64,000 nucleotides of DNA, from assembly GCF_000507185.2 (NCBI RefSeq), contig NZ_AYTM02000002.1, positions 1,015,501-1,079,500 on the forward strand, read 5' to 3'. How positions within the stretch are numbered: the first letter of the stretch is position 1; each line of letters begins with the position of its first letter. Position numbers and translations under genes: made by a program. Origin of the DNA: Pseudomonas syringae KCTC 12500 (lineage in GTDB: Bacteria > Pseudomonadota > Gammaproteobacteria > Pseudomonadales > Pseudomonadaceae). Shown in pieces: positions 3,105 through 42,000 of this stretch. The notes beneath the pieces are model-generated. The model did not search any database, had not been told where the DNA came from, and saw only the letters and a program-made list of their open reading frames with translations.

Positions 3105-4712
3105 ATGAGTCAACATTTTCAGCATGACGTACTGGTAATCGGCAGCGGCGCTGCCGGGTTGAGCCTGGCACTGACCCTGCCCGACCACCTGCGGATTGCG
3201 GTCCTGAGCAAGGGTGACCTCGCCAACGGCTCGACCTTCTGGGCGCAGGGCGGTGTTGCGGCAGTGCTGGATGACACCGACACCGTGCAATCTCATGTTG
3301 AGGACACGCTGAACGCAGGCGGCGGCCTTTGCAACGAAGACGCTGTGCGCTTCACCGTCGAACACAGCCGCGAGGCGATTCAATGGCTGATCGATCAAGG
3401 CGTGCCTTTTACCCGCGGCGATGACGCAGGCACCGACGAAAGCGGATTTGAATTTCACCTGACGCGTGAAGGCGGCCACAGCCACCGGCGGATCATTCAT
3501 GCTGCAGATGCCACGGGTGCAGCCATTTTTCGCACCCTGCTGGAACAGGCAATCAAGCGACCCAATATCGAATTGCTCGAACAGCGCGCTGCCATCGACC
3601 TGATCACCGAACGCCGTCTCGGCCTGGAAGGCAAGCGCTGCCTCGGCGCCTACGTGCTCAATCGCCACAGTGGCGAAGTAGATACTTACAGCGCGCGCTT
3701 CACAATCCTGGCGTCGGGCGGCGCCGCCAAGGTTTACCTCTACACCAGCAACCCTGACGGTGCCTGTGGCGACGGCATCGCCATGGCCTGGCGTTCCGGC
3801 TGCCGGGTAGCGAACCTTGAGTTCAACCAGTTTCACCCCACTTGCCTGTACCACCCGCAGGCCAAGAGCTTTCTGATCACCGAGGCACTGCGCGGTGAAG
3901 GGGCGTACCTCAAGCTGCCTAACGGTGAGCGGTTCATGCAACGCTTCGATGAGCGGGCAGAACTGGCGCCGCGCGATATCGTTGCCCGCGCGATAGACCA
4001 TGAGATGAAGCGGCTGGGCATCGACTGCGTGTATCTGGACATCAGCCACAAACCCGAAGCCTTCATCAAGACGCACTTCCCAACCGTCTATGAACGCTGC
4101 CTGGAATTTTCCATCGACATCACTCGCGAACCGATCCCCGTAGTCCCCGCTGCGCATTACACCTGTGGTGGCGTGATGGTGGACAGCAAGGGGCATACCG
4201 ATGTGCCGGGCCTTTACGCCATCGGCGAAACCAGCTTCACAGGCCTGCATGGCGCCAACCGCATGGCCAGCAACTCGCTGCTGGAGTGCTTCGTCTATGC
4301 CCGATCGGCCGCCGCAGACATCGAGAAGCAACTGGCTGACGTGCAGATGCCCGCCGACCTTCCGGCCTGGGACGCCAGCCAGGTCACTGACTCGGATGAA
4401 GACGTGATCATCGCGCACAACTGGGACGAGCTGAGACGGTTCATGTGGGACTACGTCGGCATTGTGCGCACCAATAAACGCCTGCAGCGCGCTCAGCACC
4501 GCGTACGCCTGCTGCTGGATGAGATTGACGAGTTTTACAGCAACTACCGAGTAAGCAGAGACCTGATCGAACTGAGGAACCTTGCTCTGGTAGCGGAACT
4601 GATGATCAGGTCTGCCATAGAACGCAAGGAATCTCGGGGCCTGCACTACACGCTGGACTATCCAGAGATGCTGCCAGAGGCTAAGGATACGATCCTTACA
4701 CCGACTTTTTGA
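3105..4712 (+). CDS. nadB: L-aspartate oxidase NadB, with 3' end replaced by an integrated element
   Basis: NadB oxidises L-aspartate to iminoaspartate with FAD, the first step of de novo NAD synthesis. The 535-residue product has the FAD-binding [11 protein letters not shown] near residue 12, the substrate-loop [13 protein letters not shown] near 246, GEGAYL, and the late [12 protein letters not shown] motif. The ATG at 3105 starts MSQHFQHD, the family start; an ORF 54 bp longer is only the open frame. Codons up to 4547 belong to the host gene. The last 55 codons (4548-4712) come from the mobile element and encode a tail closely similar in protein to the displaced host tail at 11066-11259 but with many synonymous changes, including AGA/AGG codons unlike its surroundings. 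The product should still be functional. Confidence 0.95.
4529..4547 (+). repeat. attL core (19-bp direct repeat, left copy)
   Basis: CGAGTTTTACAGCAACTAC occurs here within nadB and again at 11066-11084 where the displaced host tail begins. The flanking bases differ on both sides, so these 19 bp define the exchange region. Confidence 0.9.
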
Positions 4713-4752
4713 GGCACGTTTGAGGGCCTAAGCGTAGCACCTAAGGCCTCGT

Positions 4753-4784
4753 TTTGTAACAGCTTTGGACCATATTTGTCCCAG
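4753..4784 (+). repeat. Candidate arm-type integrase sites, left end
   Basis: Two 10-mers, TTTGTAACAG (4753-4762) and TTTGTCCCAG (4775-4784), recur in the same order and orientation near the other end at 10978-10987 and 10989-10998. Paired short repeats inside both ends suit arm binding by a tyrosine integrase or excisionase. The spacing differs (12 versus 1 bp), so the pairing may have another use. Confidence 0.45.
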
Positions 4785-4902
4785 CCCTGGGGTCCTTACC
4801 GCTCCCGTGCGGCTCTGAGCTAACGACCTGCGCGAGGGCCTACGGGGGTAACCGCTGGGTCTGTCTATGAGAGGTGGTCATTCAGATTTTTTTATCAGAT
4901 TT

Positions 4903-4989
4903 TCATTGAGGGACCTTGAGTTTCCCATACAGCCAGAAGGCCACATGAACAGCTACGCAGACCCAGTAGGCAGCCTGTAGCGTGTCCAT
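4903..4989 (-). CDS. Putative 28-residue single-pass membrane peptide of the element
   Basis: The frame encodes 28 residues beginning MDTLQAAYWVCVAVHVAFWL and ending KLKVPQ: one hydrophobic helix at about residues 5-20 and a short basic tail. An AAGGAG sequence six bases before the ATG is as strong a ribosome site as any in the element, and the gene starts 16 bp after the stop of the 238-aa Rha gene on the same strand. Small membrane peptides in phages include holins and superinfection-exclusion proteins, but nothing in the sequence chooses between them. It could be a chance frame; the ribosome site and operon position argue otherwise. Confidence 0.5.
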   Translation of the reverse strand: MDTLQAAYWVCVAVHVAFWLYGKLKVPQ

Positions 4990-5005
4990 GAGGTTCTCCT
5001 TGAGG

Positions 5006-5722
5006 TTACTTGGCGATTCGGCCCCAACGGTCGGTCTTGTCCTGAGCTTTATTGACAGCATTGTTCATGCTCTCAGCCTTGTGCTTGAGCCACTCATTGA
5101 GGCCCTTATGGGTGATCTTGAACAGGTGGCCGCCATTATTGGATACGACCAGATTGGACGGTTTGAGGGGCTTGATGAAACCAGCTTGCTCGTACTTGGG
5201 ATTAAGCTGTGTGTGCCCTTGGGTTGTCTTACGGGCGTTCCCCGTGTCGATCAGCAGGGCTAAAAGTTTATCGGGATGGGCGATTTCAGCGAGGCGGCAG
5301 GCTTCACGCCAGCTATAACCAACTGTACGACCCTTACGGACATGCTCATCGAAGGCAGGGGCCATTGCATTGACTCGGCTCTGTAGATCCTTAAGGGTCT
5401 CGGTGATGGCCTGAGCAGCAAAGGCTGGGTTAGCGACTTGCTCCAGTTCAATCCAGCGCCCCACCACGTTGTAGCGAAGACCAGTGTCATAGCCAGTGAT
5501 GAGGGTGAAGGTTAGGTGCTTGTCGAGGACCAGCATCGGCAGGTCTTTGTTCTGGTTGTTCTTATAGGTTGCCTCGGTGAAAGCCACGGAGGACTCCTCA
5601 GATCTGAGGGCACCTACTTGAGCAACAATCCCTCGGGCATCTCGGAGAACGTTGTCGTGACGCTTGCCAGTCAATTCAGCGATTTCAACGGTGGTCATGG
5701 TTACGATGTTATTCACGTTCAT
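5006..5722 (-). CDS. Rha-family phage regulatory protein with extra C-terminal domain
   Basis: 238 residues. The N-terminal third has the Rha pattern: VTMTTVEIAELTGKRHDNVL, then FTEATYKNNQNKDLPMLVLD and LTGYDT-type residues (TLITGYDTGLRYNVVGRW). The C-terminal half (about 140-238) resembles antirepressor C-terminal domains (PKYEQAGFIKPLKPSNLVVS, ITHKGLNEWLKH). Rha proteins are phage regulators; the founding member interferes with infection of hosts lacking integration host factor. The ATG at 5722 has AAGGA ten bases upstream; a GTG 39 bases earlier is possible. The gene follows the capsid-like gene with a gap of about 200 bp. A shorter Rha-like protein is encoded at 9178-9537, so the element carries two. 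Confidence 0.75.
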   Translation of the reverse strand: MNVNNIVTMTTVEIAELTGKRHDNVLRDARGIVAQVGALRSEESSVAFTEATYKNNQNKDLPMLVLDKHLTFTLITGYDTGLRYNVVGRWIELEQVANPAFAAQAITETLKDLQSRVNAMAPAFDEHVRKGRTVGYSWREACRLAEIAHPDKLLALLIDTGNARKTTQGHTQLNPKYEQAGFIKPLKPSNLVVSNNGGHLFKITHKGLNEWLKHKAESMNNAVNKAQDKTDRWGRIAK

Positions 5723-5920
5723 AGTGTCGATTTCCTTTTGGTAGTGCCCTTCAGGTCGCACCCACAGCCGAGCATCCAGACCCCGACAAAGGGACCCGGC
5801 ATGGCATGAAAGGCACTATCAGAAAGACTGGATTGGTTGATTGCCCAGCGACGGGCAGGTGTAGCGGTGACCCTGCCGGTCCCTCTCGGGCCGGTCTTAC
5901 GGGTCATCTTTCAAACTTTG

Positions 5921-7189
5921 TTAAGCAGCGGCAGTTACATTCACGGTGTAGGACGCCGAGAAACCACCATCAGCAGTCGTCACCTTGATTGTCGCCTTGC
6001 CCACTTTGAGACCCTTTACAGAACCTGTTGGGGATACCGTTGCGACTGAGGCATCGGATGTGGCCCATGTGATGCTCTGATTGGTGGCATTTGCAGGGGA
6101 CACAGTGGCAACGTTTGAGTATGAAGCACCCACGGCGAGGTCCTTAGAGGCGCTCTTGAGGGATACACCCGACACCGGAGTGAACAGCCTCACGTTGGTG
6201 ATCATCGGGAACGCTACAGTTTCAGTCTGAAGACCATCTTCGGTCAGCTTCACCTTGACCTTGCCGTTAGCCACGATGTCTACGGTTGTCATAATCTCAA
6301 TGTCCCACGCCTGGGCATTGCCGTTGCGGGTCGCAAGGATTTTCCAAATGTCGCCCTCACGGTTCTCACGGTAGCTCAGAGAGGTGAACATCTTCGGTAG
6401 CAAGAACAGACCGTAGTCAGTACCGCTGTAAGGCTGCACAGACGCGCCAATAAGGTTCTCGATTTCACCCACACCAGCACGCTGGGCGGCACGCTCAAGT
6501 ACAGCCACCATCGACACAGGCAGCAACACCACGAAGTCAGACAAAGAGGTGCCCACGGTCTGATTGATGTGCATCGTCAGGAGATCAATAAGATCTTCAG
6601 CAATTTCTACAGGCTTGCCCGTTGGCTTAACTTCAGAGAAAACCTCGGTACTTGCAGCGGTCGAAAGGATGCCAGCGATTTTACCCGCTGCGCTTAACTC
6701 AATGTCACGCAAGATCTTGTCAGCAGTTTGAGACATTGATGCTTCGGTAAAACCAGCAATCAAGTTGTGGTCGAGGATCGTCACGCGATGACTAATAACC
6801 AGAGCTGAATCGGTAGGTTCCGTAAAGATGATCGACCCGGCCAATACTTCGCCCTTGCTAATGGTTTGGTTATCCCAGTTCTTGCGAGGGTCGAACTTAA
6901 CGGAGCGATCAGCCATAGTGATAACTTGTTGACCGGTAGCCTCAGAGCCCGCAGGACGGAACTCGCAAGGGGTTCTCTCCATAGCAGCCTCGCGCCACTC
7001 ATCGCCATTCAAGAAGTCCTCAGCGAGTTCCACAAGGGCTTCCACATAGGCCGATGGATCGGTGCTTGCGAGTGTCTCTGCTCGTACATCGGAAGTGCTG
7101 AAGTGGATTGATGCATTGTTATCGTCAATGGCGCTGATGTTCCATTTAACGGTGTCTACATGCGGTGCTACGTACTGATTAGGTTTCAT
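5921..7189 (-). CDS. Capsid-like structural protein with C-terminal bacterial Ig-like (Big_2) domain
   Basis: 422 residues. Roughly residues 1-335 have the look of a phage major capsid protein: an N-terminal acidic arm, a long helix-rich stretch (DKILRDIELSAAGKIAGIL), a beta-rich part with DFVVLLPVSMVAVLERAAQ and GTDYGLFLLPKMFTSLSY. I cannot name the capsid family with certainty. Residues about 338-420 are a clear Big_2 Ig-like fold: VSGVSLKSASKDLAVG, ATVSPANATNQSITWATSD, ASVATVSPTGSVKGLKVGKA, ending YTVNVTAAA. Ig-like domains are common add-ons on phage capsid and tail proteins. The gene has CAGGAG upstream of its ATG, 40 bp after the 133-aa gene. Alternatives are a head decoration or other surface protein. 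Start may shift by one base. Confidence 0.6.
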   Translation of the reverse strand: MKPNQYVAPHVDTVKWNISAIDDNNASIHFSTSDVRAETLASTDPSAYVEALVELAEDFLNGDEWREAAMERTPCEFRPAGSEATGQQVITMADRSVKFDPRKNWDNQTISKGEVLAGSIIFTEPTDSALVISHRVTILDHNLIAGFTEASMSQTADKILRDIELSAAGKIAGILSTAASTEVFSEVKPTGKPVEIAEDLIDLLTMHINQTVGTSLSDFVVLLPVSMVAVLERAAQRAGVGEIENLIGASVQPYSGTDYGLFLLPKMFTSLSYRENREGDIWKILATRNGNAQAWDIEIMTTVDIVANGKVKVKLTEDGLQTETVAFPMITNVRLFTPVSGVSLKSASKDLAVGASYSNVATVSPANATNQSITWATSDASVATVSPTGSVKGLKVGKATIKVTTADGGFSASYTVNVTAAA

Positions 7190-7230
7190 AGAATTTTCTC
7201 CTGAATTAGATAGTTGGGTTCGGTCTTGGC

Positions 7231-7629
7231 TTACCAGCCGGAGTTACCACGGGATGCCGCACGGACACGGGCACCCTGATCACGAATGGCAGCGGCGCGG
7301 GCTTCCTTGTCAGCTTTGGCCTGAGCCAGTTCACGAGGCGTCCACTCACGGCAGCGCTCGGCATGGGCATCGGCTTCGCGTTGTTGACGCGCTCGCTCAG
7401 ATGCCTTTGCGGCTTTGTCTCCGTGGTACTCGCGGGCAACATCAGGAATCGCTTTGAGCGAAAGACCGGCCTCATCAAACACTTGGACGATCTCGAATTG
7501 GCGACTCTTAACGGTGCCACATTGAGCAACCAGCATGGGCAGCATGATGTTCTCTACGTACTCACGGTTCAGAACTTGCCCCGACACAGTGACTTCGTTC
7601 TTCAGGACTTTGGTGATTGTGATTTTCAT
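7231..7629 (-). CDS. Unknown 133-aa element protein, possible scaffold-like
   Basis: Starts MKITITKVLKNEVTVSG with AGGAG ten bases before the ATG at 7629. The first 70 residues look folded; from about residue 75 the chain is highly charged and alanine-rich (GDKAAKASERARQQREADAH, then AQAKADKEARAAAIRDQGAR), suggesting a long helix or coiled coil. It lies immediately upstream of the capsid-like gene in the same transcript. Phage scaffolding proteins occupy that position and often have such tails, but I recognise no family and the assignment is inference from position and composition only. Confidence 0.65.
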   Translation of the reverse strand: MKITITKVLKNEVTVSGQVLNREYVENIMLPMLVAQCGTVKSRQFEIVQVFDEAGLSLKAIPDVAREYHGDKAAKASERARQQREADAHAERCREWTPRELAQAKADKEARAAAIRDQGARVRAASRGNSGW

Positions 7630-7656
7630 TTGTTTGGATCTCCTATGAGTTGATCC

Positions 7657-7740
7657 ATTAGTCAGCCTTAGCGCCATTGAGGCACACGACCAGACGGCCA
7701 AGGAGAGAAGACCACGAAGCCTCAACTAAGGCTGACTAAT
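7657..7740 (-). ncRNA. Long bulged hairpin in the leader of the 133-aa/capsid-like operon
   Basis: A perfect 15-bp inverted repeat (7657-7671 with 7726-7740, arm ATTAGTCAGCCTTAG) continues, after a five-base bulge on one side, into seven more paired bases (7677-7683 with 7719-7725), leaving a 35-base loop. It begins 28 bases before the 133-aa ATG and is inside the leader predicted from the promoter at 7874-7901. It could be an RNase III processing site, an mRNA-stabilising structure or a DNA signal. There is no T-tract, so a terminator is unlikely. Confidence 0.6.
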
Positions 7741-7873
7741 AGATTCTGGGGTTTGGGTTATTGCAGATGATCTAACAGGAAATGGCGGAACCTGAGAGGG
7801 CATCTTTATGGACAACCGTGGCGACGGTCGCTGTAGCTGGGATAGAGAATATTTTTATTGGATTCGGTGTCTG

Positions 7874-7901
7874 TCCCAATAGTGAGGGGTTTTAAACGAC
7901 A
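7874..7901 (-). promoter_or_regulatory. T7-like phage RNA polymerase promoter, site A
   Basis: On the minus strand the site includes AAAACCCCTCACTATTGGGA. It resembles the T3 promoter core (AACCCTCACTAAAGGGA), the T7 core (CTCACTATAGGGA) and, as I recall it, the consensus of Pseudomonas phage gh-1 (AAAACCCTCACTRTGG). The predicted start, by alignment to T7, is near 7877, giving a leader of about 250 bases ahead of the 133-aa and capsid-like genes. Site B (9028-9054) is a close copy, sharing TGTCGTT, AAAACCC, TCACT and TTG blocks over about 25 bp. Confidence 0.6.
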
Positions 7902-7915
7902 CCTTGACTGATACT

Positions 7916-8239
7916 TCAAAGCCTGATCGAAATTGGCTCTTTACCGACCATTGGGATTCTCAAAGGCGTCTTTGCGAGCGCCTGTAGATTGAGTCCAGCC
8001 GAGACCAGTTCAATGATCCTTTCGCCAGTCTTGTAAGAGCCCTTTAAGGATGCTTCACGAACCAGAGCATCGATATCAAAGGAGACCATTCCGTTTTCAT
8101 AGCTTCTGAAGTTTGCTCTATGATCGGTGAGTAGATTCTTTACAATGATCAATTGACCCCTTGAGGCTGGTGGGAAGACCCGAGACAAAGCAATCAGGTC
8201 ATGTTCTTTAAGCAATTCGTTTGCTGGATAGGTGTTCAT
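7916..8239 (-). CDS. Unknown 107-aa element protein
   Basis: Begins MNTYPANELLKEHDLIALSR with AAGGAGG six bases before the ATG, so translation is well supported. I do not recognise the family. The chain is mixed alpha/beta with no membrane segment or signal peptide; the middle (GQLIIVKNLLTDHRANFRSY) and end (LRIPMVGKEPISIRL) look like a compact soluble domain. It sits between a terminator-like hairpin (8282-8307) upstream and phage-type promoter A just downstream of its stop. Confidence 0.65.
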   Translation of the reverse strand: MNTYPANELLKEHDLIALSRVFPPASRGQLIIVKNLLTDHRANFRSYENGMVSFDIDALVREASLKGSYKTGERIIELVSAGLNLQALAKTPLRIPMVGKEPISIRL

Positions 8240-8281
8240 GTGAGTCCTCCTTAAAGATTTCTTGAGAGATAAATGAAAAGA

Positions 8282-8307
8282 AGGGGTTTTAATTATTAAT
8301 TACCCCT
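8282..8307 (-). terminator. Terminator-like hairpin between the 199-aa and 107-aa genes
   Basis: AGGGGT (8282-8287) pairs with ACCCCT (8302-8307) around an A/T-rich loop. On the minus strand the stem is followed by TCTTTTC, a weak U-tract. It would end transcripts that cover the 199-aa gene. Confidence 0.4.
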
Positions 8308-8405
8308 CCTCATCAGAACTGGTCGATCAGGTGTCGATAAGCTGGAAGGGATCTTTAAGATGGAAGGTGCCCTAATAGTTTTCTTTCTATTATCCGTCGC
8401 TATCT

Positions 8406-9005
8406 CTAAGAAGCCCGGAATAGAGCTTCCACGTCGATCTCTGCCTTGATTCTTGGGTGCCTCTCCACGTAAGAAGCGATCCCATGAGCAGCATGTCGAG
8501 CAGCCTTGGCGATACGCTGGGCAGTTCGCAAAGTCATCTCATCGGTCTTGCAGGCTTCCGCTGTGATCTCCGAAAGGAACAACGCATTAATAACCGCTCG
8601 GCGCTTGACGTTGATCTTTCCGTTGGTGACCCCGGCACTGGTGATGATCGACCCAGTAACAATGTCGTCTACCCACGGCAACGGATCGGGAATCGCAAGG
8701 AGATGCATATAGGCAGCGGCTGAGTTCGGGTAAGCGGTCCTTGGGCGTCCTCGGGTTGCCTTGCGAGAATCACTTGGGTTGGCTTGGGTGCTGGTGGTCA
8801 GAGCTGGGAGATTTGTGAGAGCCGTGTGGGTGTCCTTGGAGAGAGCTGGGTCGGCTCGGCGCTCGGCAGCCCACGCCTGGAACTCTTCCTCGGGATTCTT
8901 GGGCATTGTCATCTCATTGTGGTTGATGACTTCGCCCGTGTCTGGATCAACGTGGAAGATGGTTTTGGCTTCGAAGCCGAGGTGGCGGTGATACTTGGAA
9001 CGCAT
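8406..9005 (-). CDS. Unknown 199-aa element protein with AT-hook-like motif
   Basis: The ATG at 9005 has AGGAGG eight bases upstream, and that leader starts only 26 bases away if promoter B is used. The N-terminal half is charged and probably flexible; around residue 83 the sequence KATRGRPRTAYP contains the GRPR core of AT-hook DNA-binding motifs. The C-terminal half (about 95-199) is helical, with KRRAVINALFLSEITAEACK and RTAQRIAKAARHAAHG. A DNA-binding or regulatory role is a guess from these features. No family recognised. Confidence 0.65.
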   Translation of the reverse strand: MRSKYHRHLGFEAKTIFHVDPDTGEVINHNEMTMPKNPEEEFQAWAAERRADPALSKDTHTALTNLPALTTSTQANPSDSRKATRGRPRTAYPNSAAAYMHLLAIPDPLPWVDDIVTGSIITSAGVTNGKINVKRRAVINALFLSEITAEACKTDEMTLRTAQRIAKAARHAAHGIASYVERHPRIKAEIDVEALFRAS

Positions 9006-9027
9006 GGAATGGTCCTCCTGTTGTTGG

Positions 9028-9054
9028 TCGCAACAGTGAGGGTTTTTAACGACA
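9028..9054 (-). promoter_or_regulatory. T7-like phage RNA polymerase promoter, site B
   Basis: On the minus strand the site includes AAAAACCCTCACTGTTGCGA, close to the T3/gh-1-type core AAAACCCTCACT. Alignment to T7 places the start near 9031. A 26-base leader with AGGAGG then leads to the 199-aa gene, a very phage-like arrangement. It is a close copy of site A at 7874-7901. Confidence 0.6.
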
Positions 9055-9112
9055 GCGGACTTTCGACCAGCAAATACGGGACTTCAGGGAATCTCCAGGT
9101 TTCCCACAAGCA

Positions 9113-9175
9113 CGTTCCTACGCTCACGGAGTAAGGCTAAGCCTCAGCGAGTCGCATGGATTTCACGTAGGAACG
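9113..9175. repeat. 10-bp inverted repeat just after the short Rha gene
   Basis: CGTTCCTACG (9113-9122) and CGTAGGAACG (9166-9175) are perfect inverted copies; between them is a smaller palindrome AGGCTAAGCCT. The motif TAAGGCT inside it also occurs in the 7726-7740 hairpin arm. It starts 3 bp past the stop of the 9178-9537 gene and could be a transcript end structure or a regulator site. Confidence 0.4.
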
Positions 9176-9177
9176 CA

Positions 9178-9537
9178 CTACAAACGCCGTAGGCTCATAA
9201 CCTCTGACTGGAGACCTGAGAGGGACTCAATGATGGCCCCTTGAGATTGAGCGGAATGGCAAAAACCCATTTCCCCCATGTGCTGTACTTCCTCCAGTTC
9301 GTGCCACCGTTTGATCACGGCCATACGCATCTTGGCGCTGTAGCCAGTGAGGAGACATTCGGTGTGGTGCCGGTCGAGCAGATACTCGGTCTGCTGACGG
9401 TTCATGCTGTCCAAAAAGATGCGTCCAGTTTTGGACACATCTTCCTGTAGCTCACTGAACATCCTCTCAATATCTCGCTTCACATGCTGTGGCTGCTTGC
9501 CGGTCAACTCAGCAATCTCCCTGCTGCTCATGGTCAT
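9178..9537 (-). CDS. Short Rha-like phage regulator
   Basis: 119 residues, corresponding only to the Rha N-terminal domain: MTMSSREIAELTGKQPQHVK, RDIERMFSEL, then a DRHHTECLLTGYSAKMRMAV stretch parallel to the matching region of the 238-aa Rha protein of this element. It lacks the C-terminal domain. It lies between the integrase (44 bp away) and the 199-aa gene. No clear Shine-Dalgarno is seen. A role in control of integration/excision or of the helper response is inference from position. Confidence 0.65.
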   Translation of the reverse strand: MTMSSREIAELTGKQPQHVKRDIERMFSELQEDVSKTGRIFLDSMNRQQTEYLLDRHHTECLLTGYSAKMRMAVIKRWHELEEVQHMGEMGFCHSAQSQGAIIESLSGLQSEVMSLRRL

Positions 9538-9580
9538 CGACTGGTTAGGACTACTCAGATTTGAGCAGTCGTCCAGTGGC

Positions 9581-11023
9581 TTATAGCAGGGCTGTGTTTA
9601 ACGCCTCAGCCATCCTTGCGACCTGTACCCCACTACCAGCCCCGTACAGGTCGTAGCTAATCGAACCTGAGGCGTGCCCTAAGATTGCCTCAGCGGTCCC
9701 CACAGGCACCTCAGCGGCTTTCAAAGCGCCCGCCAGCGAATGACGCAACGAATGGAAGGTCTGGGTCCTATCAGCCTTCAGGTCCAAGACGCCCCTGAGC
9801 ATGCCATTGAGAACCCCAGAGAACTGACCAGTGCCCAGCGTAAACAACCGAGAGTCAGCCTTATCGACAAACTCAAGGAACGCCTGAAGATCAAACCCAT
9901 AGGCTCCATCGGTCAACGGGATAATCCTCAAAGCGTTCTTGGTCTTGGCTGTCTTGCCATCATCCCTATTGATGTCGATCACCCAGACACCAGCGACCTG
10001 TTTAATGTCAGCCTTGGTCAACTGCCTGAGTTCTTCAATTCGGGCCCCTGTGATGGCCCCAAGAGACAATGCCCAGCGCTGCCAAGAGCCCACAGGAAGC
10101 TCCTTAGCGTGGGCCATAAGGGCCTTTACCTGATCCTGAAAGAACGCCTCACGGGAGCTATCAGCCCCCTTGGTCGGCTTCAAACCATCGGTGAGAGCCT
10201 TGACGAGATAGTCATTATTCACTCCCCAATCCATGACCGTAGAGAGTCGGGTCAGGATTTTCCTCACAGTGGACGGCTTACGATCCTCAAGAAGCTTTGC
10301 CCTAAGGTTCTTCATATCTTCCCGAGTGTGGGCCTTTAAGTCCAGCTCCCCAAGGATGGCGCCAATGGCCTCACAGGTAGACTTCACGTCCCTCATGGTG
10401 CTGGCTTGAACATTATCCTTGAGTTCGTCCATGTAGAGCCCTGAGAGCCCCTTGAAGGTCAATGGCTTGGATGCTTCAGAAGGTAATACAGATAGGGACG
10501 GAGATAGGGCTACAGACGTGCTACAAACCTCAGCCTTCAGGTCCCTAACGATCCCTACCAGCTTTCCCGGCTTCCCCTTCAAGCGCTCTTGAGCGGCCTC
10601 GACGATATCCAGTGCCTTACCAACTGCGCGTTGCTGGTTGACGCTCAAAGGCATCTTGGCGCTCGCCTCACGGAGAGCCTCATGGTGCTCATCGTTGATC
10701 ATCTCGTAGGCGACCAGCGAGCTATCGCCATGGGCCATTGTCAGGCAGGACTCAGCGATGTCTATGAGGCGCTCACGGAGTTCGTCCCAAGTGGCCTCAG
10801 AGTTATCGAAGTGGTACGCCTTGAGGGTCGTGAGGATGTCCTTGGAGATGGTCATAGCGGTGGCCTTATCGGTGGTCCTGAGCGATAGCGTGAAGAAGCC
10901 CTTAGCGGTGCCTTGAGGGCGAAGGCGAAGGTAATAGCGACCAGACCGGCGATAGTGGTAAGGCTTGGCGAGGGCAGTTTGTAACAGGTTTGTCCCAGTT
11001 TGGGAGTGCTGGTTGATGGTCAT
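9581..11023 (-). CDS. int: Tyrosine-recombinase integrase of the element
   Basis: 480 residues. The N-terminal arm and core-binding part (about 1-290) include GLYMDELKDNVQASTMRDVK, a SAM-like domain. The catalytic domain has the expected residues: Arg in GAITGARIEELRQL, Lys in TAKTKNALRIIPL, the HSLRH box, LGHASG, and the nucleophile Tyr in SYDLYG near residue 458. The gene starts 43 bp inside the right att core and reads inward, the usual P4/prophage arrangement. It should catalyse integration at the nadB 19-bp core. Its first codons overlap the candidate arm sites at 10978-10998, so binding there could also repress its own transcription. Confidence 0.93.
   Translation of the reverse strand: MTINQHSQTGTNLLQTALAKPYHYRRSGRYYLRLRPQGTAKGFFTLSLRTTDKATAMTISKDILTTLKAYHFDNSEATWDELRERLIDIAESCLTMAHGDSSLVAYEMINDEHHEALREASAKMPLSVNQQRAVGKALDIVEAAQERLKGKPGKLVGIVRDLKAEVCSTSVALSPSLSVLPSEASKPLTFKGLSGLYMDELKDNVQASTMRDVKSTCEAIGAILGELDLKAHTREDMKNLRAKLLEDRKPSTVRKILTRLSTVMDWGVNNDYLVKALTDGLKPTKGADSSREAFFQDQVKALMAHAKELPVGSWQRWALSLGAITGARIEELRQLTKADIKQVAGVWVIDINRDDGKTAKTKNALRIIPLTDGAYGFDLQAFLEFVDKADSRLFTLGTGQFSGVLNGMLRGVLDLKADRTQTFHSLRHSLAGALKAAEVPVGTAEAILGHASGSISYDLYGAGSGVQVARMAEALNTALL
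10978..10998 (+). repeat. Candidate arm-type integrase sites, right end
   Basis: TTTGTAACAG (10978-10987) and TTTGTCCCAG (10989-10998), direct copies of the two 10-mers near the left end (4753-4784), placed within the integrase start region. Confidence 0.45.
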
Positions 11024-11065
11024 CGGCTGAAACCCCTATATCCATTGGGTTTAGCCTCATACGGT

Positions 11066-11084
11066 CGAGTTTTACAGCAACTAC
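11066..11084 (+). repeat. attR core (19-bp direct repeat, right copy)
   Basis: Exact copy of the 19-bp core at 4529-4547. From its first base the frame continues into the displaced host nadB 3' end. Confidence 0.9.
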
Positions 11085-11259
11085 AAGGTCAGCCGCGACC
11101 TGATCGAGTTGCGCAACCTGGCGCAAGTGGCGGAACTGATGATCCGCTCGGCCATGCAGCGCAAGGAAAGCCGGGGGCTGCACTACACGCTGGACTATCC
11201 CGAAATGTTGCCGGAGGCGCTGGACACTATTCTGGTGCCGCCCACTTATGCCGGCTGAA
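11066..11259 (+). pseudogene. Displaced host 3' end of nadB
   Basis: This stretch encodes [20 protein letters not shown], continues through [18 protein letters not shown], and ends PPTYAG followed by TGA, the normal NadB C terminus, but has no start. It is the original host tail pushed 6.5 kb away by the element. By eye about 52 of 59 residues match the replacement tail at 4536-4712, while the DNA differs at many third positions. Excision would restore the native gene. Its last 33 bp overlap the end of ygfX on the other strand. Confidence 0.92.
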
Positions 11260-39034: not shown

Positions 39035-42000
39035 TTACTGGTGTGCTTGAATATCCTGAAGCGGTAGCAGATCCATGACGTCACAGAACAACTGCCGGTG
39101 CTTCCAGTCGTTTCTGTCGCCAATCACATAGAGACGTCGCTTGGCACGCGTCGCAGCCACGTTCAGCAGGTTAGGTTCTGAAACAGCCCAGTTGCGAGCA
39201 CCCGCTCCGGCAGTGTTGCCGCCCAATACGACGATGACGATCGATGCTTCCTTGCCTTGCATCGTGTGGATCGTGCCCGACACTAGCTTGCCTCGGAGTA
39301 TGCGCTTGAGGTTTTGCTGCACAGCCTTGAAAGGCGTGATGACCGAAATATCTTTCGCCTCTACGCCATCGCCATGCAGCCGCTTGAGCAGGTCGCGCAA
39401 GACCTGGCCTTCCGCAGGCACCCAATTTCCTTCGGAAGACCCACTGACATGTATCCACCCTGTCGGCAGACTGGCGAGGGTTTCTTTGTCGGCGCGCGGT
39501 GCAATCGTTCCATACACCATTGCTCCGTCGTAGGCGATACGGTTGGCGAGTGCATACATAGGCTTGTCGCAGCGGCGATGCACGACCAGTGGCAATCCTA
39601 CCCACGTCTTGCCGCCGGCGGGCCCGGCCATGCGTCCCCAAGGAGTGGCTTCGTCAGCCAGCACCTGTGCGGATTTTTGATTGGGAATCCAGTGCGCATC
39701 AACCCCGTAACGTGTACGCATGTGCTCCAGCACCGCATCGGATACGGTAACGATGGGCTTGAGTTGCAGCGGGTCCCCCACCAGCAACGCGCGTCGGGAC
39801 CGCCACAGTGCGCCGACTGCCTGTTGCGGAGCGGCCTGACCGGCCTCATCCACGAGTAACCAGCCAATCTCACTGGCACCCAGCGAGCCAAACGAACGGG
39901 CGAATGATGCGAAGGTGCTGCTCAACACCGGAACGACCATGAACAAAGAAGCCCACGCCGAACGGATTGCATCGCGCGACAACCCTTGGAAACGCGAACC
40001 GGTCAGCAGACTATTGATCATGAATAAATTGGAACGCAGTCTTGACGCCTCAAGCTCGAAGAACGTCTGGTGGAGCTTCAGTGCCTGGATGAAAACCCGC
40101 GCACGTGCCTTCCGCCAGCCTTCAATGCGCCAGGGTTCGGCCAGTTCAATGGCATCCCCATCCCCGATAGCGTTGTCTTTTAACCAAGCAAGCAGATGGT
40201 CAGCCTGATGAGTGGTTGCCAGTTCCCAGGCATCGCGCGTAAGCGCTTGGTCCTGCTGCTGCGATCCCTGAAGCACTCGGCGCGCGTCAGTGATTTTTCT
40301 TTCCGCCTGGACCTTATCGATATCGAGTTGTTGAGTAAGGCGTGTGATCCGCGCGAACTCGGCCTTGGCAACGTCACGTCGGCTTTCCAGCAGTGCCCGA
40401 GCGGCATTCCAGTCGCGTCGAGCATTTCCCAGACTGAATACATTTGACCAGAAACCGGGTCTGGGTGGGAGCATCCCAAGCGCGTCAAGACACTTCTTCA
40501 GTGCCGTATTGGCGGGACCACCTTCCTCGTTATCCAGGCGCGAGAGTTCATTGGCTACCTCAATCAGCGACTGTTCGAATGACCTGAGTTTTTCGGAGTC
40601 TTCGGCAATCTTCTTCCTGGCCTCGAGGATGGCCAGGATCAACTCACGAATCCGACTGGCGTCACGGCATGCTTTGCGTTCTTGCGCCTTGACCGCCTCG
40701 TAGTCAGAGACTGCTTGCTGCCACAACGCTTGACGTTGCTCTGGTGAACGGACCGCATTCACCTCGGCACTCACATTGAGCCACCCCCAAAATCCCTTCG
40801 GGCCCTTCTCTTCCTCGGGTGGAGCATCTTCGCTCTGGCTCTCGCTGTCGTCAGCGTCTTCCATCTCGGCAGAGGAGGCCGAAAAGAGTGCTTCCACGAT
40901 GTTGTCGACTTCTTCGTCAGGGTCGACCTCCGTCTCGTCTTCTACCTGCGCCGCAGCCTTGTCTTCGCTGCCAAACGGGCGCTGACCATAGAAGTAACGA
41001 TCTACGAATTTGTTGCGACGCGCCTTACTCCCCAATGCACCGGAAATCAGTCCCCACGCAGGCTTATCCGAGACAAGTTCCCCCAGCTCCGCGAAATACT
41101 CTGCTTCTGGCAGCCAACTTTCATCAATCTTGTCTCGCTGCGGCAGTTCCAGTGTCACATTTTCCACGGCACCGTTGTTGGATGAAGCGACCACGATTTC
41201 GAAGCCATACAGTGCCGGGTTGAGCTTGAAACCATATTGCTGCTTACCACCGTCGTTAGCGGCTTCGCGCCCGTCGCTTAAGAATGCATCGGAAGCGCGG
41301 CGTAGCTTGGCGAACGCATCGGCGCGGCTGGTGATAATCGCTGCAATAAGGTCGCGCAACAGCGTCGTCTTGCCCGTTCCAGGTGGGCCGTTGACGCCAA
41401 GCAATCCTTGACCATCGGCAAGGGTGGACTGGATTGTGTTGACCGCCAGCTGCTGGGAATGCACCAGGCCCAAATGGTGCTCGGTGGGCCAACAACTACT
41501 GGCGTAGGCATCCGGCATCAGTCGCCCCATCAGTGGCAACGATGCACGCTTATCATCCATATGCAGGCGAAGCTCGGGATCGTGATAGCGCAGGTACTGG
41601 TCCAGTGGTTCGCTTTTCACCCCTCTGGAGATCGCATCGGCGACATCGGCAAGATCGTCCAGCAAAAAGCTGTTCAGTGGATCGTCTTCCGACTCGGGCT
41701 TGTCGGGCTTGACGGGTTGTGAGCGAAAGCGAAAATGATGGTGGTCCATCTCACCAAAAAAGTCCCCCAGCCCCAGGAACTGGAGGGTCCAGTGAGTCAG
41801 TTCGCGCAAGTCTGCGCTTGATACCTCACCTTCGAACAGGGCGTTGGCGCGCTCCCTGACGGTCTTTTGGTCGGTCTCGAACCCTCTGGTCCAGTCCTTG
41901 CCGGTCAATACCCGCCCTAGAAACCACGCTTCGCTTGAAAGCACGAGACTGTCATCGACCAGTCGGCCCGCCATCGTGAATTTTGCCGCAAACACGGCTG

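Follow-up and report, generated by a model that had tools for sequence, protein, structure and literature searches.

Organization of an integrated element in nadB

The window analyzed here, a 64,000-nucleotide stretch of the Pseudomonas syringae KCTC 12500 genome, contains an integrated element of 6537 bp, which lies on the minus strand at positions 4548-11084 inside nadB. Read along the minus strand, the element consists of an integrase gene, a gene encoding a Rha-like regulator, promoter-like site B, the genes of a 199-aa and a 107-aa protein, promoter-like site A, the genes of a 132-aa protein and a capsid-like protein of 422 aa, a second Rha-like gene, and a 28-aa ORF. Its features are listed below, where L numbers denote the loci of related elements.

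4548..11084, minus strand: integrated element; all assigned genes on the minus strand; bounded by att core repeats
9581..11023, minus strand: tyrosine integrase, 480 aa (PF00589, 1.8e-14)
9178..9537, minus strand: Rha/antirepressor-like regulator, 119 aa (PF09669, 5.3e-14; phrog_63, 1.2e-19)
9025..9049, minus strand: site B, predicted T7-type promoter of the middle-class PPPL-1 subtype, TTAAAAACCCTCACTGTTGCGACCA; predicted start 9031
8406..9005, minus strand: 199-aa protein, led by site B; homologues at the same place in L006, L051, L052, and L062
7916..8239, minus strand: 107-aa protein; homologues at the same place in L002, L006, L008, L009, L049, L051, and L062
7871..7895, minus strand: site A, predicted T7-type promoter of the phiOR/late class (TTGGGA), TTAAAACCCCTCACTATTGGGACAG; predicted start 7877
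7656..7742, minus strand: long hairpin in the leader 3' of site A, limits read by eye; position like that of an RNase III site
7231..7629, minus strand: 132-aa DUF6971-like protein, 5' of the capsid gene (PF22318, 5.3e-4, below the cut-off)
5921..7189, minus strand: 422-aa capsid protein; predicted HK97-like fold at about residues 43-336 plus a C-terminal Big_2 Ig domain
5006..5722, minus strand: second Rha/antirepressor-like regulator (PF09669, 6.2e-13, for the longer reading frame; phrog_10324, 1.5e-22)
4903..4989, minus strand: 28-aa hydrophobic ORF, from translation alone, directly before the genome-end site
4833..4905, minus strand: T7-type genome-end site (terminal-repeat start/concatemer junction); predicted left end CCTCTCA at 4874
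4548..4712, plus strand: nadB 3' end supplied by the element; NadB kept in frame to its stop

The 19-bp att core (CGAGTTTTACAGCAACTAC) is present at 4529-4547 and 11066-11084, and both copies fall within a 153-bp duplication of the nadB 3' end, the two versions of which are 81% identical. The original 3' end of the gene has been displaced to 11085-11258, and the NadB frame is intact when the flanks are joined. Since the element brings its own 81% identical nadB 3' end, the gene is swapped rather than broken by integration. When the joined flanks were used as a query, an empty site was found in 19 of 24 other genomes of the same genus, each with a one-piece match to the nadB stop codon or beyond, while in the remaining five the match crosses the junction and ends earlier. 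Because the end of nadB is restored by an integrated element as well (the genome of KCTC 12500 itself matches to query position 320), the label of empty site was reserved for the 19 genomes whose match reaches position 361 or farther. The element thus has the integrase and chromosomal att sites of an integrative phage satellite and, as far as profile searches can tell, it also resembles satellites in having no complete set of virion and replication genes.

The element integrase is 44% identical to that of the T7-like phage 3MF5 (L100, 39455-40963), a hint that satellite and helper have exchanged genes. Profile searches against Pfam, PHROGs, and NCBIfam placed the 199-aa protein in no family at a convincing level, and profile searches likewise found no family for the 107-aa protein. 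Further homologues of the 199-aa protein, with 51-69% identity, occur at L065, L068, and L069 in Pseudomonas genomes outside the capsid-search sample and may mark additional satellites; one genome (G588) has three matches to this protein at 29-58% identity. The 132-aa protein has a homologue in 22 of 26 loci, several of its close homologues carry a precomputed PF22318 assignment, and its structural model is mostly helical (pLDDT 89). For the 422-aa protein, structure prediction (mean pLDDT 69) combined with VIA-align suggests an HK97-like capsid fold, and its Ig domain matches PF02368 at 7.5e-18. No sequence similarity was found between it and the major capsid protein of PPPL-1. Four comparisons (with L002, L001, L008, and L005) gave a capsid dN/dS of 0.06-0.17, which indicates purifying selection. 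The 28-aa hydrophobic ORF occupies the position of T7 gene 19.5, a likeness of position for which no similarity is claimed.

Profiles of Pfam, PHROGs, and NCBIfam, each library being applied to some or all of the element ORFs other than the 28-aa ORF, revealed no gene for a polymerase, a primase, a terminase, a portal, or the tail machine. A previous reading of this DNA from its sequence alone (hereafter, the sequence-only reading) had stated that the element has no RNA polymerase gene of its own, and these searches bear this out. Similarly, searches of the host genome revealed no RNA polymerase of the T7 type, and these included a Pfam search in which the positive controls PPPL-1 and gh-1 were detected. 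The element therefore lacks the enzyme that an Autographiviridae phage encodes. No host promoter for int stands out either, as the element has 3 promoter-like sites compared to 3.9 expected by chance.

Promoter-like sites and the genome-end site

The sequence-only reading had proposed that two T7-like phage promoters reside on the coding strand of the element and that they resemble those of gh-1. Both sites are indeed located on the minus strand at the places proposed, and they are the only two matches in the window for a 19-mer blended from A and B with up to 3 mismatches allowed (0.01 expected from shuffles). The 14-base core AAAMCCCTCACTRT has exactly 2 copies in the 6,150,048-base genome, both of which are in the element, and its backwards control has 0. 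By analogy with the T7 promoter, whose layout we take as a guide, the +1 G is predicted at 9031 for site B and at 7877 for site A. Site B would thereby give, as had also been proposed, a leader of only 26 bases to the 199-aa gene, which has an AGGAGG ribosome site. The leader from site A would be 248 bases long and belong to the 132-aa gene, the one before the capsid-like gene. The region spanning the hairpin in the latter leader (7620-7880) has an MFE z of -3.6, and 0 of 200 shuffles were as stable. The gh-1 record annotates RNase III sites after several of its promoters, and the hairpin of the element is similarly placed behind site A.

Promoters are annotated in the gh-1 record and in none of the PPPL-1, Ghual01, PMBT23, and MR2 records. 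Five phages were found to contain 9-10 promoters each, for a total of 49, all of them on the plus strand as are the genes, and a profile built from these scores site B at 40.7 bits and site A at 39.2 bits. Site B is identical at 23 of 23 bases to a promoter of PPPL-1, P413, P421, and Ghual01, with 5 matching places per record, and it is 87-94% identical over about 30 bases to sites in other Pseudomonas T7-like phages. The best places for site A have 90-94% identity over 31-34 bases and occur in 14 T7-like phage records at 6-7 places each. Among 2.9 million IMG/VR contigs, exact copies of B (23 bases) are present in 8 and exact copies of the A core (20 bases) in 6, amounting to ten contigs in total, and all 13 of the stretches fetched from IMG/VR promoter matches encode 4 or more proteins that resemble those of PPPL-1. 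The match to Autographiviridae promoters, specifically to those of Ghunavirus-type RNA polymerases, is therefore better than chance, the opposite of the outcome that would have overturned the sequence-only reading. The proposed resemblance to gh-1 stands as regards the Ghunavirus type, but the closest relatives are the promoters of the PPPL-1/Ghual01/PMBT23 subtype rather than those of gh-1 itself.

The phage promoters mostly take two forms, a middle-type form, AAAAACCCTCACTGT, and a late-type form with CACTAT, often with a fourth C. The CCCCTCACTATTGGGA (TTGGGA) form occurs once each in PPPL-1, Ghual01, and PMBT23, where it is found 3' of the large terminase gene, which is the place of phiOR in T7. 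Site B thus looks like a middle-type promoter and site A like a phiOR-type promoter, these class names being read from position.

A further signal extends the earlier reading, as judged from homology: a T7-type genome-end site, which is a candidate packaging site, is also present on the element. The first BLAST match of the element to phages, 81 bp at 85% identity, lies near the right end of MR2, and similar matches are present in other records. A query focused upon the genome-end site matched 72 phage records at E 0.01 or better, including 58 Pseudomonas and 12 Vibrio phages, with the best phages reaching 81-85% identity over 75-81 bp. Matches to PPPL-1, MR2, Ghual01, and PMBT23 span 63-81 bp at 79-85% identity, and the match to gh-1 (34 bp, 88%) runs across its annotated terminal-repeat start. 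In this alignment, the repeat start is preceded by the direct repeat AATCTGA...AAAAATCTGA and followed by CCTCTCA, with which the gh-1 genome begins. The element thus carries a copy of the site at which a T7-like terminase forms the left end of the genome. The corresponding sequence of T7 is AAAAATCTGAGTGAC, followed by TATCTCACAG, at the repeat start, which we take to be position 39778. The site is located behind the last gene of the element on the same strand as in the phage, it matches a profile of five phage genome ends at E = 1.4e-16, and its repeat motif AATCTGANNNAAAAATCTGA has a single copy in the whole host genome.

A family of related loci

Relatives were gathered by the capsid-like protein alone, which yielded 26 loci including that of the window. 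One capsid search matched 25 genomes, from which eight (L039-L046) were dropped as Ig-domain-only matches; L012-L016, from another search, were dropped likewise, and L024 and L025 were treated as duplicates of L004 and L006 because their contigs have the same lengths. As some loci are closely related (e.g., L053/L054 and L004/L050), the locus counts are not counts of independent events. Based upon these comparisons, the element belongs to a family that occurs in Pseudomonadaceae. Separately, three IMG/VR contigs (L081-L083) encode capsid relatives with 72-73% identity.

Both kinds of phage signal recur in these loci. The genome-end motif was found in 25 of the 26, always 3' of the capsid gene on the coding strand, with profile E-values of 1.4e-16 to 0.047, of which the matches in L052, L008, L007, and L060 are weak (E 0.0024-0.047). 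The sole locus without it, L011, terminates at a contig edge. At a threshold of at least 11 bits, the 49-promoter profile matched 17 of 25 loci, with 29 coding-strand and 0 antisense matches inside the elements compared to 2 and 0 in the flanks. The short motif CCTCACT was examined in 25 loci across the stretch 1.8-5.0 kb 5' of the genome-end motif, which corresponds roughly to the interval from the integrase end to the capsid start. It occurs there 46 times on the coding strand and once antisense in 88 kb, compared to 4 and 9 times in 284 kb of flanks. The motif is present in 22 of the 25 loci, the contigs of the other 3 ending <1 kb 5' of the capsid gene, and L010, L059, L060, L061, and L062 have a single site in the stretch.

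Loci without Ghunavirus-type promoters have variants at about the same places. L009 has TTATTTACCCTCACT twice, and one copy is identical at 24 of 24 bases to a promoter-like site of phage Ep007 and at 23 of 24 to one of Kallioja, while the AATAAACCCTCACT of L007 is the commonest form in both Ep007 and Kallioja. By sequence identity, then, the L009 variant tracks another subgroup of T7-like phages. Other variants matched phage sites weakly: AAAAACCCTCACTAATAG of L055 is similar to an annotated promoter of Warsawvirus 3MF5 at 83% over about 34 bases (E = 2), and the L005 variant reaches 87% over 30 bases (E = 0.1). L053 and L061 have CCTCACTAAGG sites, which are presumably near the T3-type promoter, and a further polymerase specificity may thus be in use. 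Searches of IMG/VR for exact copies of the relatives' promoter variants returned 0 matches for each of three patterns. Within 17 elements, the two sites of one element are more alike than the sites of different elements (permutation p = 0.012), a test that pairs the first and last CCTCACT match per element and thus includes matches that are probably not promoters. By eye, the promoter and genome-end subtypes are mismatched in L008, L049, and L052, which have Ghunavirus-type promoters and an end that is more 3MF5-like.

Sizes could be assigned to 16 of the 26 loci, as the rest are without a clear repeat pair or a full contig, with L005 being ambiguous. The 16 elements occupy several att sites and measure 6388-6688 bp, with a mean of 6534 and an sd of 94. 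The sizes of several (L003, L007, and L059) are based on repeats of just 14-17 bp, L006 has two repeat pairs giving 6267 or 6432 bp, of which 6432 was used, and L052 (7930 bp, with an interrupted integrase) was left out. Six copies of such an element amount to 38.3-40.1 kb, which is within the range of the whole phage genomes fetched (37.4-41.6 kb). Such constancy is compatible with a small head of fixed size and equally with a limit on concatemers; the former is favored by the capsid protein that the element encodes, the latter by the factor of six, reminiscent of the 8 copies described for PICMI (PMC10803314). When 120 listed capsid homologues were counted by hand according to their longest contig, 16 fell at 6-7 kb, and the neighboring bins of 5-6 kb and 7-8 kb contained 4 and 6, respectively. 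A peak at 6-7 kb is what would be expected if free unit-length DNA had been sequenced.

A probable satellite of T7-like phages

Very probably, the element is a satellite of T7-like phages of the Ghunavirus type, and its sequence suggests that it depends upon such a phage as its helper. The sequence-only reading, in which gh-1-like promoters on an element with no polymerase of its own would make it helper-dependent, is supported by all the sequence tests applied here. As an explanation, it is quite improbable that the locus is a decayed T7-like prophage, integrase-bearing like 3MF5, whose promoters and genome end are leftovers. Such an origin would suit the 44% identity of the integrases as well as the T7-like order of the signals and end site, yet size and gene order are near-constant across relatives and integration sites, the capsid dN/dS of 0.06-0.17 speaks against decay, the capsid has no similarity to that of PPPL-1, and besides the integrase no T7-like gene was recognized. 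A chance origin of the sites, or their use by host RNA polymerase, has a negligible probability, given that the only two occurrences in 6.15 Mb are both in the element, that the strand bias across 25 loci is 46 to 1, and that exact IMG/VR copies are found solely in contigs with T7-like genes. On these statistical grounds, chance is already refuted.

It is also unlikely that the element serves mainly as an anti-phage device, in which an invader's polymerase would activate blocking genes (e.g., the 199-aa protein or a dominant-negative capsid) or in which the polymerase or terminase would be titrated. In favor of this, no function is assigned to the 199-, 107-, or 132-aa protein, and published satellites can shield their host from phages (PMC10803314). 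However, the integrase and att sites, together with the genome-end site and the constant size, are characteristic of a mobile element that is packaged, and interference is in any case compatible with satellite life.

The preferred reading, that of a satellite of T7-like phages, leads to the following scheme. The element would reside in nadB without a polymerase for its promoters until a T7-like phage infects, at which point the single-subunit RNA polymerase of the phage would recognize site B (middle) and then site A (late/phiOR) and transcribe the satellite genes, including the capsid gene, on to the genome-end site. The integrase would free the element in circular form, and it would have to do so early, because infection by T7-like phages shuts down transcription in the host and leads to degradation of its DNA. 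After circle formation, transcripts from A would pass the end site and attP into int. T7 promoters double as replication origins, and since no replication gene is recognizable in the element, A or B probably likewise serve as origins for the helper replisome. The helper terminase would then cut at the copied terminal-repeat start (4874), and the DNA would exit either in a satellite-specific head, built from the HK97-fold protein that the element encodes, or in a head of helper size that holds about six copies as a concatemer. The linear form would have the order end, attP, int, rha, B, p199, p107, A, p132, capsid, rha, end, which is a miniature T7 layout.

Several known satellites share features with the element. 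PICMI of the Vibrionaceae are very small integrated satellites that depend upon virulent phages; they adjoin fis and have three core proteins for excision and replication, with int, alpA, and prim being named, and they are packaged as concatemers of 8 copies with random extremities (PMC10803314). They have no capsid-remodeling genes, and neither cos nor pac sites could be identified by the authors of that report (PMC10803314). The element would likewise be a very small integrated satellite, its reliance upon a virulent phage being suggested by its sequence, but it differs in its nadB site, HK97-fold capsid, helper-type promoters and genome end, and in having no recognizable alpA or primase gene; it neither adjoins fis nor has the int, alpA, and prim set of PICMI. 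A cf-PICI-type element has capsid, portal, protease, head-tail, closure, and terminase genes (PMC13230959). The element resembles cf-PICI and cf-PISP in probably having its own capsid protein, whereas this predicted HK97-fold protein is the only one of its kind recognized in it, as it has no portal, terminase, or head-completion genes of its own. For SaPIbov5, a satellite-encoded capsid protein, Ccm, is reported to be linked to head size (PMC8569155). Ccm is reportedly a homologue of the helper capsid, whereas sequence comparison found no similarity between the element capsid and that of PPPL-1.

PICIs are defined by an alpA or stl-type regulator together with primase/rep genes; profile searches recognized none of these in the element, which has Rha-type regulators instead as well as three ORFs without an assigned function. 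The Ghunavirus phages (PPPL-1, Ghual01, PMBT23, MR2, and gh-1) and Warsawvirus 3MF5 share its promoters, genome-end site, and signal order, and 3MF5 also has an integrase of the same family, but these are 37-42 kb phages that encode both an RNA and a DNA polymerase as well as a terminase and tail proteins, none of which were recognized in the element. From its sequence features, we can conclude that the element works like a phage satellite and that, by the features tested, it is not a PICI, cf-PICI, or PICMI. Among the matches listed from the open-licence literature, no paper dealt with satellites of T7-like phages, and none combined 'satellite' with 'Ghunavirus', so this Pseudomonas satellite family has apparently not been described before.

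More tentatively, and with somewhat less than even confidence, we propose that the element represents a widespread Pseudomonadaceae satellite family whose lytic program is set by cis-acting mimicry of T7-like phages: the promoters would time expression and start replication, the copied end would direct packaging, and the element's own capsid would make a small head, with no induction regulator or replication protein being needed. Satellite induction usually involves a helper protein that lifts a repressor, or else a satellite activator. If the present interpretation is true, the RNA polymerase of the helper itself would act as the trigger, and such a one-component switch would explain the ability of a satellite to respond to a phage that is fast and shuts off its host. 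The family would also provide natural promoter pairs for following the co-evolution of polymerase and promoter, offer a ready test of which T7 signals are sufficient for replication and packaging, and might be a hidden influence on host range among the T7-like phages of Pseudomonas.
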